Notes under the pieces: generated by a model
Databases searched by the model: none
What the model was told of the DNA's origin: nothing
What the model saw: only the letters and a program-made list of their open reading frames with translations
Assembly (NCBI GenBank): GCA_020047755.1
Contig: JAIFNL010000164.1
Coordinates: 1 to 53,854 of the forward strand
Direction of reading: 5' to 3'
From: Bacteroidota bacterium
GTDB taxonomy: Bacteria; Bacteroidota; Bacteroidia; Bacteroidales; JAIFNL01
Length of the DNA stretch: 53,854 bases
Part shown: positions 13,002-31,077 of the stretch, piece by piece
How the letters are laid out: every line of letters begins with the position of its first letter
How positions within the stretch are numbered: the stretch's first letter is position 1
Made by a program: the position numbers and the translations under genes

Positions 13002-13559
13002 TTACAGTTTCCAGCTTATTTCGTAGCGCGTTTCGGAGTCGCCTTTTGAAAGAGCTTTGGTAATTCTAATTCTCACATCGGTACAACCACTTAATTCTAA
13101 GGCTCTTTCCATCCAGCCACCAATTCTATGTTCTATCAATTTATCTATTTCTTCAAACTTGAAAATGGTTACCACTACCGAGTTTTTTGTCTCTTCGCCA
13201 GAATCAACCATAACATTTTCGTAATAAGTTGCCGTAATTTTCGAGGCGCGCTTAATAATGTAGCTAGGATTTGCCACTTTTACAAAAATTTTATAAACTC
13301 CAGTTAATGTGGCACTTGCACTATGTCTGCCAGATTGCCATGCCGCTTTTAACGAGTTTTGGTCAAAAAACATTTTCAAATGGTAAGTTGGCAATATTGC
13401 ACCTTCTTGCATTGGATACCAATCGGTTGCATAAATTGCACCTTTCATTATTTCTTGCGATTTGGGCGGCAAATTAGCTAACCAATCGTTGTATTGATTA
13501 GGATATTGGTCTTTTACAAAATTTTGTATGGCTTTTACGGTTGTTCCTTTTGTTCTCAT
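13002..13559 (-). CDS. V4R / DUF2378-like ligand-binding domain protein
   Basis: A 185-aa protein that resembles the single-domain V4R / heme-NO-binding-like / DUF2378 group. It has an N-terminal KGTTVKAIQNFVKDQYPNQY helix, ATDWYPMQEGAILP, a WQSGRHSASATLTGVYKIFVKVANPSYIIKRASKI block and a C-terminal RIRITKALSKGDSETRYEISWKL strand pair. In many relatives the last motif carries Cys residues; here none is present in that position, so metal or redox sensing through that site is unlikely. Function unknown; probably a small-molecule or signalling domain. The neighbouring folE is on the same strand 254 bp upstream. Confidence 0.45.
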   Translation of the reverse strand: MRTKGTTVKAIQNFVKDQYPNQYNDWLANLPPKSQEIMKGAIYATDWYPMQEGAILPTYHLKMFFDQNSLKAAWQSGRHSASATLTGVYKIFVKVANPSYIIKRASKITATYYENVMVDSGEETKNSVVVTIFKFEEIDKLIEHRIGGWMERALELSGCTDVRIRITKALSKGDSETRYEISWKL

Positions 13560-13700
13560 AAAAAGTTAATTTTGCATAGATTAAATTATATTATTAAATT
13601 ATTGAATTATTGATAGTGCAACAAGCTGGTAACTTTTTAAAAATCGGCAAAATAAAACATTCAATTTTTTGTGATAAAATAACAATTGAACAATGTTACA

Positions 13701-13787
13701 ATTTGTTATTAGAATTTAGAAAAAAATGCGTAATTTTACTTTTTTTAGAATTTTGGTTGCAAGCAAGTTACGTTATCAATTTATTAG
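13701..13787 (+). repeat. Intergenic element, copy A
   Basis: Ungapped alignment with 17221-17307 gives 62 identities over the first 80 positions by hand count, ending in the shared block TTACGTTATCAAT. Similarity may extend about 20 bp further left. This copy lies between folE and the V4R-like gene and lacks the intact -7 box seen in copy B. Confidence 0.7.
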
Positions 13788-13813: not shown

Positions 13814-14440
13814 CTAGTGCATTTTAGCACTTATTATTTTGAAAAACTCTTCGCGTGTTGCCACTTTTTCAAAAGCACCGGTAAAGTCTGATGTAGTTGT
13901 AACCGAATTTTGTTTTTGTACTCCTCTCATTACCATACACATGTGAGTAGCCTCAATTACTACCGCCACACCCAGCGGATTTAATGTATTTTGAATACAC
14001 TCTTTAATTTGCGTGGTAAGCCTTTCTTGCACCTGCAATCGACGAGCAAAAGCTTCCACTACTCTGGCTATTTTGCTCAAACCTGTTATGTAACCATTTG
14101 GAATATAGGCTACATGAGCTTTTCCAATAAAAGGCAACATGTGATGCTCGCACATCGAATAAAGGTCAATATCCTTAACCACAACCATTTGCGAGTAATT
14201 TTCCTTAAACATAGCAGAACGTAAAATTTCCTCTGGTTTCATGTTATATCCTTGAGTTAAAAACTGCATTGCTTTTGCTACTCTTTCGGGTGTTTTCAGA
14301 AGTCCCTCTCTATTAACATCTTCGCCAAGTTCGTAAATTATTGATTTATAATTTTCGGTCAGAGCTTTGGTTATTCGTTCGTTGTATTTTTCTATTTTTT
14401 CAAAACCATAAGATTTTGAACTATCGATAGTGATATCCAT
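13814..14440 (-). CDS. folE: GTP cyclohydrolase I (FolE)
   Basis: This enzyme converts GTP to 7,8-dihydroneopterin triphosphate, the first step of folate synthesis and also the entry to queuosine precursors. It has 208 aa and the type IA features: [15 protein letters not shown] (about 44-58), the zinc ligands Cys97 and His100 in MCEHHMLPF, Cys168 in [10 protein letters not shown], and the [37 protein letters not shown] core. The ATG at 14440 is the natural start. It is monocistronic by appearance, with 170 bp to the upstream subtilase gene. Confidence 0.96.
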
Positions 14441-16448: not shown

Positions 16449-17132
16449 ATGCGTATTTTAATTGTAGTTGCAACCCAATTTGAAATAGAATTTTTACTCA
16501 ATTATTTTTCCTGCCAGTTTGATAACGACAGGAATGTGTATTTTTTTGAAAATGAAAAAATGCGCGTTGAAATTTTAATTGCCGGAATTGGAATTGCTTT
16601 TACTATATTTAATTTGAGTAAACTTATTTTCGCCACGTCTCAAAAGTACAACTTGGTGGTAAACGTTGGAATTGCGGGTAGTTTTAACAAACAACTAGCA
16701 TTAGGACAAGTAGTTAGCATTTACGAAGACCAATTTGCCGATTTGGCTATTGAGCAAGCAAATGGCGATTTGCAAACAATTTTTGAAACAAATTTCGCCA
16801 ATGCTAATGAGTTTCCATTCATTGATGGCAAGCTAAAAATAGAGCCATCATTCTCGCGAGTAATGCTCCAAATTGACGAGTTTAAAGCGATTACAGTAAA
16901 TACAACGCATGGATTTGAACAAAATATTCAGGTATTTAAAAAGAAATACAATGCCGATATTGAAAGCATGGAAGGCGCGGCGGTTTTTTATGTGTGCAAA
17001 AAGGAAAAAATTAAAGTTCTACAAGTCAGAAGCATTTCTAATTATGTAGAAATCAGAAATATAAAAAACTGGAAAACCAAAGAAGCGATTCAAAATTTGA
17101 ACCGTTTTTTGATTAATTTTTTACTTTCTTAA
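16449..17132 (+). CDS. mqnB: Futalosine hydrolase (MqnB)
   Basis: A 227-aa nucleoside phosphorylase-fold protein that cleaves futalosine to dehypoxanthine futalosine in the alternative menaquinone pathway. The N-terminal RILIVVATQFEIEF strand, the NVGIAGSFNK phosphate-like loop and the DIESMEGAAVFYVC purine-site motif (Glu/Met/Glu, about 174-187) are family hallmarks shared with MTA/SAH nucleosidases. The next gene is MqnD, which makes the futalosine assignment stronger than a generic nucleosidase call. Other mqn genes (mqnA, mqnC) are not in the window. Confidence 0.9.
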   Translation: MRILIVVATQFEIEFLLNYFSCQFDNDRNVYFFENEKMRVEILIAGIGIAFTIFNLSKLIFATSQKYNLVVNVGIAGSFNKQLALGQVVSIYEDQFADLAIEQANGDLQTIFETNFANANEFPFIDGKLKIEPSFSRVMLQIDEFKAITVNTTHGFEQNIQVFKKKYNADIESMEGAAVFYVCKKEKIKVLQVRSISNYVEIRNIKNWKTKEAIQNLNRFLINFLLS

Positions 17133-17220
17133 AACGGAAGCATCAGTGTTATTTTATTTTTGAACAAAATTCTTTATTTTTTTTACTAAAAAAACAATAG
17201 AATATTTTAGCAATTTAATA

Positions 17221-17307
17221 TTTTATTATTATAATTTTGAAAAATTTACGCAATCTTACATTTTTTAATTTTTTGATTACTAGTAATTTACGTTATCAAT
17301 AAATTCA
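17221..17307 (+). repeat. Intergenic element, copy B, with mqnD promoter
   Basis: Homologous to 13701-13787 over its full length. It contains TAATTTTG at 17232-17239, a match to TAnnTTTG. It ends 11 bp before the mqnD ATG and so forms most of its leader. Two related blocks, ATTTACGCAATC and ATTTACGTTATC, lie about 42 bp apart within it. Confidence 0.7.
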
Positions 17308-17318
17308 CAAAACAAAAT

Positions 17319-18146
17319 ATGAAATTAACGCTCGGATTTTCAACTTGCCCCAACGACACATTTATTTTTGATGCCATGATTCATGGAAAAATAGACACCG
17401 AAGGGCTCGAATTTGTTACAAAAATGGCTGATGTAGAAGAACTTAACCGCGAAGCCTTTGCTAGTTCTATCGACATAACCAAACTTAGCTATCATGCTTA
17501 CGCTTACATTGCTGAGCATTACGTTTTGTTGCATTCGGGCAGCGCACTTGGCAGAAACAACGGACCTTTGCTCATAAGTAAGCACAAAATTTATCCTGAC
17601 GAGGTGAACAACCTAAAAATTGGAATTCCAGGCAAAAATACTACCGCAAATCTTTTGCTTGGAATTGCTTATCCCAAAGCAACCAACAAGCACGAATATC
17701 TTTTTTCTGACATAGAAGAAGCCGTTTTAAGTGGCGAGCTTGACGCTGGACTTATTATTCACGAAAATAGATTTACTTATGAAGCTAAAGGCTTGAAAAA
17801 GATTGTTGATTTGGGCGAATTTTGGGAACAAAAAACAGGTTTGCCCATTCCACTTGGCGGCATTGTAGTAAATAGACGTTTGCCGTTAGAAATTCAGCAA
17901 AAAATAGACCGTGTTTTGCAACGTAGCGTACAATTTGCTTTTGAAAATAGGCGAGAAAGCCTACCATTTATCAAACATTATGCTCAAGAAATGAGCGAAG
18001 AAGTTATGTACAAGCACATTAATTTGTACGTAAATAATTTTACTTTGCAGCTTGGCAGCGAAGGACAAAAAGCGGTTGAAACTCTCTATAAAATAGCTTC
18101 TGAATTGAAAATTATTCCGCAAATAAATCAAAATATATTTGTATAA
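17319..18146 (+). CDS. mqnD: 1,4-dihydroxy-6-naphthoate synthase (MqnD)
   Basis: This enzyme converts cyclic dehypoxanthine futalosine to 1,4-dihydroxy-6-naphthoate, the last naphthoate-forming step of the futalosine pathway. It has 275 aa and the periplasmic-binding-protein-like fold. Family motifs are LGFSTCPNDTFIFDAM (about 5-20), the SYHAYAYIAEHYVLLHSGSALGRNNGPLLIS block and the GLIIHENRFTYEAKGL segment containing the conserved His. It stands with mqnB on the same strand, 186 bp apart, but the spacer contains its own promoter-like sequence and a repeated element. Confidence 0.95.
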   Translation: MKLTLGFSTCPNDTFIFDAMIHGKIDTEGLEFVTKMADVEELNREAFASSIDITKLSYHAYAYIAEHYVLLHSGSALGRNNGPLLISKHKIYPDEVNNLKIGIPGKNTTANLLLGIAYPKATNKHEYLFSDIEEAVLSGELDAGLIIHENRFTYEAKGLKKIVDLGEFWEQKTGLPIPLGGIVVNRRLPLEIQQKIDRVLQRSVQFAFENRRESLPFIKHYAQEMSEEVMYKHINLYVNNFTLQLGSEGQKAVETLYKIASELKIIPQINQNIFV

Positions 18147-30811: not shown

Positions 30812-31077
30812 AAGTTTATTTTTTAGTTGAATGATTACTCAATTTATTTTGTGTGCAAATTACATTTTTTTTTAGAACAGAAAGTTTTTTTGATAGTATA
30901 AGAAAACTAGTTTTAACGTATATTTTTTTGAAAAATAAACTGTATTTTTATTTATTTTAATCTGTAATTTTCTAATTTTAATTTTATTTATTATATTTCG
31001 ACTTTCTAATAATTGCCTTATTTTATTCTTTTTGACAGTTAAAATGCTGATTTATAAAAAATAACAATCTAATTTAC

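Follow-up and report, generated by a model that had tools for sequence, protein, structure and literature searches.

A short intergenic repeat beside folE and mqnD in a Bacteroidota genome is very probably a miniature transposon of the ISH6 type

What is the intergenic sequence that occurs twice, 3.5 kb apart, beside folE and mqnD in a Bacteroidota genome? The window, that is the whole stretch of 53,854 bp analyzed here (contig JAIFNL010000164.1 of assembly GCA_020047755.1), contains both copies, and the initial annotation had proposed an element of 80–100 bp that could be either an undescribed short interspersed element or a shared regulatory RNA/DNA site. The underlying similarity was reproduced: positions 13701-13780 and 17221-17300 align without gaps at 62 of 80 positions, and other placements of either 80-mer in the window, on both strands, reach 42-46 of 80 at best. 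Within the window, the common 13-mer TTACGTTATCAAT has exact matches at two positions only, 13768 and 17288, each on the + strand; the two copies lie in the same orientation. Searching the genome with this 13-mer at up to one mismatch gave 63 matches, most of them in the form TTACGCTATCAAT, versus 25 for the reversed pattern used as a control. The genome therefore holds more than chance AT-rich matches, and copies beyond the first two exist.

With a 21-mer of the right end and up to three mismatches, at least 102 right ends were found in the host genome (G000), compared with one for the reversed control; the two window copies were not among the roughly 100 matches listed of these 102. This many further copies sharing one right end agrees well with the term “short interspersed element.” A BLAST search of the genome with the family consensus returned at least 47 matches, about 40 of them near-full copies at E below 1e-35. 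The number 47 is a lower bound because only 40 of 345 first-look candidates were scored.

Aligned on their right end, the copies share a common sequence that reaches ∼90 bp further left and begins with the inverted right end. Alignment to the family consensus showed that the stretches originally named are only the right-hand portions of a longer element and that the boundaries of ∼80-100 bp were wrong. The left inverted repeat lies ∼90 bp outside them, and the statement that no known insertion sequence ends are present does not hold: together with the right end, this repeat gives a transposon layout with direct repeats of the ISH6 type. The element begins with GGTAGTGTAAAAAAATGGTGAC and finishes with GTTACGCTATC. 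Its terminal inverted repeats read GGTAGTGTAA on the left and GATAGCGTAA on the right (reverse complement), and among the 106 distinct right ends collected from the fetched loci the left end is recognizable as well in 68. A consensus built from 31 copies spans 184 bp, from TTGGTAGTGTAA to TTACGCTATCAA, and the mean identity to it is 92% for 51 copies that are each at least 75% identical. None of the 106 copies lies inside an open reading frame of at least 100 aa; for comparison, 1058 of 4000 points placed at random in loci of this kind fell outside open reading frames. In agreement with the initial annotation, no open reading frame of 80 aa or more runs over copy 1.

The interior contains tandem 8-bp units AACAATNN, located at about 13662-13700 in the window, and their number varies from 0 to 4 across full copies. 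Runs similar to AACAATNN were also matched elsewhere in the order, in G048, G067, and G076. Matches outside the genus to the 184-nt query mostly correspond to this tandem part (query positions 73-109) and were not counted as copies. Two unusual loci were seen in the host genome: a 37-bp palindromic stretch with little beyond the two ends (L075:2501-2537, contig C118), and a series of some nine repeats like TTGGGAGCGTAAAGATTGGTTT (L090:2393-2785, contig C188), which resembles the end of the element by chance or descent. For several of the 106 right ends in the host genome, a convergent gene has its stop codon at a distance of 0-4 bp; this would be expected if TTA/TAA stops contribute to the AANNNNTT target and the bases around it.

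This target is visible in the flanks, where 8-bp direct repeats follow the pattern AANNNNTT. Exact repeats of 8 bp were found in 16 of 67 full copies, compared with a mean of 1.46 and a maximum of 6 in 2000 shuffles, and repeats matching at seven or more of the eight positions in 28 of 67 (shuffle mean 6.5); repeats of 4-7 or 9-12 bp showed no excess in these 67 copies. Positions 1-2 are A and positions 7-8 are T, each in 119-127 of 134 repeats, and the middle four are mostly A or T. Our first reading had been a 4-bp target duplication (14 of 42 copies, then 22 of 67). It was superseded by the 8-bp repeat, because the fixed AA and TT beside the shorter duplication (AA at –6/–5 in 50 of 67 copies, TT at +5/+6 in 58, both in 43) belong to the repeat itself. 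The AA and TT columns were noticed before the published ISH6 motif was known to us; the shift of the ends by two bases was made afterwards and was prompted by that motif. The modal length between the outer TT..AA is 184 bp (17 of 67 copies), equivalent to 180 bp without them. Since the ends moved inward by two bases each give the 8-bp repeat, the element proper is 180 bp, GG...TC.

The same combination of ends and target was found on an insertion sequence in G174, a genome from another family of the order. This insertion sequence is 1448 bp long, as measured across two contigs overlapping by 55 bp, and has identical 24-base ends GATGGCGTAAAAAAAAGGTGACTT with AAATAATT on both sides. Its transposase part (252 aa) matches the ISH6 profile NF041731 with 103.1 bits (E 1.4e-29), which is below the cut-off of 240 and covers profile positions 150-405 of 414, part of the protein only. 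It has no Pfam match above threshold, TAF10 appearing below it, and no relative of the protein was found in plasmids, phages, or viral contigs. The transposase reading frame is split between different frames (L207:230-502 and L207:1-219), and this insertion sequence may be a dead copy.

ISH6 (p-MULT 2, Mutator-like DDE) is described as an element of 1456 bp with an 8-bp duplication (PMC10264941), and the motif reported to be duplicated is AANATNTT (PMC3942029). The insertion sequence of G174, at 1448 bp, is of similar length. In the latter article, all but one of the ISH6 members known came from archaea, and another survey finds ISH6 in 15 genomes, with a strong archaeal predominance and a spread over fewer than 9 phyla (PMC9208149). 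Because the insertion sequence of G174 unites the ends and the AANNNNTT target of our repeat with an ISH6-like transposase, and because AANATNTT is the published ISH6 target, we conclude that the repeat is very probably a non-autonomous mini-transposon (MITE) of the ISH6 type. It is short and non-coding, has inverted repeats and a target-site duplication, is dispersed in high copy number, and has its ends in common with an autonomous element, that of G174. It differs from the ISH6 family in that the window elements have no transposase and reside in a Bacteroidia-type genome, and the exact direct repeat being kept in just 16 of the 67 host-genome copies is a point against the assignment.

Neither the G174 protein nor the NF041731 profile detected an ISH6-like transposase in the host genome, an assembly of 313 contigs. 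Repeated insertion sequences are often collapsed in such assemblies or left out of them, so that this result does not establish absence, and the insertion sequence may reside on a collapsed or unbinned contig. Moreover, an autonomous partner in the same genome is not essential to a MITE. Among the 393 genomes searched in the order, 43 gave NF041731 matches, none of them above the cut-off, and of the matched loci that were taken only those of G174 carry the MITE ends. No autonomous element was found in loci L177, L191, L196, and L216.

The ends themselves are more widespread. A 24-base pattern of the terminal inverted repeat (TIR) matched in eight of the 393 genomes, and its reversed control in none: G037 has 232 matches, G000 50, G085 9, G174 8, G001 5, G115 4, G071 3, and G067 1. 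The counts of G000 and G037 point to a burst of MITEs in these two genomes at least. The interiors vary between genomes, and it is mainly the ends that are common. Of the MITE copies in other genomes, 13 were examined and five have an exact 8-bp repeat on their flanks; in G037, most copies lacking one may have been assembled across a collapsed repeat. The 232 end matches of G037 belong to a different MITE of 190 bp with the same ends, seen in L152, L156, and L159 and at contig ends, which seems to interrupt the assembly at many contigs. This genome also has a second end type, TTTCTTG, similar to one of the two ends of the G174 insertion sequence; it could stem from an unassembled insertion sequence. 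In G115, an extremely short palindromic form of 61 bp (L198:1462-1522) has an exact 8-bp repeat.

The two window copies and their neighbors are listed in Table 1. The end-points of copy 1 were set by its 8-bp direct repeats, which are identical at 6 of 8 bases; its alignment to the consensus runs from 13610 to 13779 with 144 of 170 aligned positions identical. For copy 2, the alignment covers about 17146-17299 (117 of 154 identical), and its left boundary is approximate due to the decay of the left end. Mononucleotide shuffles scored far below both copies against the consensus. Regarding the neighborhood, copy 1 had been placed between folE and a V4R-like gene. The folE label is backed by its Pfam domain, but the V4R-like label could not be confirmed for the other neighbor. 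The position of copy 2 in front of mqnD holds, with the start codon 21 bp past the end of the copy. A lone match to the MITE end pattern, TTGATAGTATAA, occurs at 30890-30901.

Table 1. Copies of the candidate MITE in the window, their direct repeats, and the adjoining genes.
Feature	Position	Strand	Remarks
Uncharacterized 185-aa gene, adjoins copy 1	13002..13559	-	no Pfam match at E<=0.001
Left 8-bp direct repeat GAATTATT, copy 1 (target-site duplication)	13604..13611		AANNNNTT form, one base changed
Candidate MITE, copy 1, 166 bp, full length	13612..13777	+	both inverted ends, GATAGTGCAACAAG... / ...AGTTACGTTATC
Right 8-bp direct repeat AATTTATT, copy 1	13778..13785		
folE, GTP cyclohydrolase I, adjoins copy 1	13814..14440	-	PF01227, E 8.9e-76
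mqnB-like nucleosidase gene, phosphorylase superfamily, adjoins copy 2	16449..17132	+	PF01048, E 5.1e-14
Candidate MITE, copy 2, between mqnB-like gene and mqnD	17146..17297	+	right end intact, ...ATTTACGTTATC
Right direct repeat AATAAATT, copy 2	17298..17305		left partner past recognition
mqnD-like menaquinone biosynthesis gene, adjoins copy 2	17319..18146	+	PF02621, E 8.3e-76

Gene order at both sites is kept in G002, a genome of the same genus, where the 185-aa gene is syntenic at 85%. The spacer between this gene and folE is at most 69 bp in G002 versus 254 bp in the window, and that between the mqnB-like gene and mqnD at most 64 bp versus 186 bp. G002 thus presents an unoccupied counterpart of both window sites, the exact junction being beyond resolution at such divergence. 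A deletion in G002, rather than an insertion in the window genome, could strictly still account for the difference, because the spacers have diverged too far for one intact AANNNNTT to be made out where the element is missing. The element does occur elsewhere in G002, with an exact 8-bp repeat (L103). The flanks in G001 gave no clear empty-site pair. A metagenome assembly whose record bears the label Draconibacterium orientale (Bacteroidota) apparently contains the same copy and flank (L131). Both window copies are old insertions, one with a decayed left end, beside folE and mqnD, and they probably have no function of their own.

Other explanations of the repeat have to be weighed against an ISH6-type MITE. 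That a single intergenic spacer was duplicated within the window, with no wider family behind it, would fit two copies 3.5 kb apart in the same orientation; the more than 100 further right ends and the near-full copies elsewhere in the genome have already refuted it. A MITE moved by a transposase of another family (IS4/IS5-type, IS256, or other), its ends resembling those of the ISH6-like element by coincidence, is in our view quite unlikely. It would agree with the missing detection of an ISH6-like transposase in the host genome and with the presence of PF01609 transposases in both G000 and G037. However, neither PF01609 locus bears the MITE ends, and we rejected these transposases as partners, whereas the G174 insertion sequence has ends, 8-bp AANNNNTT repeat, and ISH6-like transposase in one place. 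IS256-type elements showed no target motif in the published comparison (PMC3942029), and no Pfam match above threshold marks the G174 protein part as an IS256-type transposase.

A further alternative is a conserved regulatory RNA or cis-acting site, in which a transcribed hairpin or an internal promoter would control the neighboring genes and thereby keep the copies in place. The consensus folds with –42.0 kcal/mol on the + strand versus –21.1 on the – strand, and the + strand fold is the more stable one in 64 of 68 full copies. In the first set of copies, the element runs with both flanking genes in 35 cases and against both in 6 (33 and 6 when recomputed). Yet this bias is absent from the copies fetched later (9 versus 9; Fisher p 0.0096 between the sets), and we do not claim it, although pooling all copies gives 42 with and 15 against. 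Point changes confined to single copies, counted over 51 copies, preserve pairing 13 times on the + strand and 11 times on the – strand, giving no sign of selection on the hairpin at the RNA level; a by-copy count gives 119 versus 81 (p 0.009) but is inflated by inherited subfamily changes. In MITEs of other genomes the stronger-folding strand differs, Rfam has no match at the site, and the much shorter spacers of G002 count against a regulatory role as well. We therefore regard the regulatory site put forward by the initial annotation as very unlikely and return to the ISH6-type MITE.

Cardinium is a member of the Bacteroidota. Its MITECca01 resembles our element in being short (∼240 bp), numerous (169 copies), and mostly intergenic, but it stems from an IS982 element that its own host genome carries (PMC9769881). 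BrickBuilt and other MITEs of Porphyromonas gingivalis are likewise intergenic, come from the same broad bacterial group, and have an internal tandem repeat; they differ by IS5-like ends GAGACCTTTGCA, 23-nt repeats, duplications of variable length, and a copy number of 19 (PMC4596501). A parallel for movement in trans is ISH2 of Halobacterium, a mini-element moved by the transposase of ISH8, which belongs to another family and makes a 10-bp duplication (PMC10264941). A word search of the open-access literature returned no report of an ISH6-type MITE in Bacteroidota, as weak evidence of absence. In kind, the repeat is ordinary mobile DNA; as a family, it is new.

In the mechanism inferred here, the gene-less copies of ∼180 bp would be recognized at their inverted repeats of ∼22 bp by a transposase made elsewhere. 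This enzyme would excise or copy the element and insert it at AT-rich palindromic AANNNNTT targets, and repair of the staggered cut would duplicate 8 bp of target. It is conceivable, if rather doubtful, that an ISH6-type system, a kind described chiefly from haloarchaea, is established across several families of one Bacteroidia-type order almost wholly as MITEs. These would have been amplified to more than 100 copies in genomes without a detectable transposase and would owe their movement to transposases of outside origin that are gained and lost again.

The finding accounts for what appeared to be an undescribed regulatory repeat. Because the copies are short and intergenic, they can alter the spacing of genes, for example upstream of mqnD, and short-read assemblies appear to be interrupted by them. 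The full definition of ends, target, and direct repeat allows such elements to be masked or annotated in many genomes. The assignment would also extend to these bacteria an insertion sequence family so far known chiefly from archaea.
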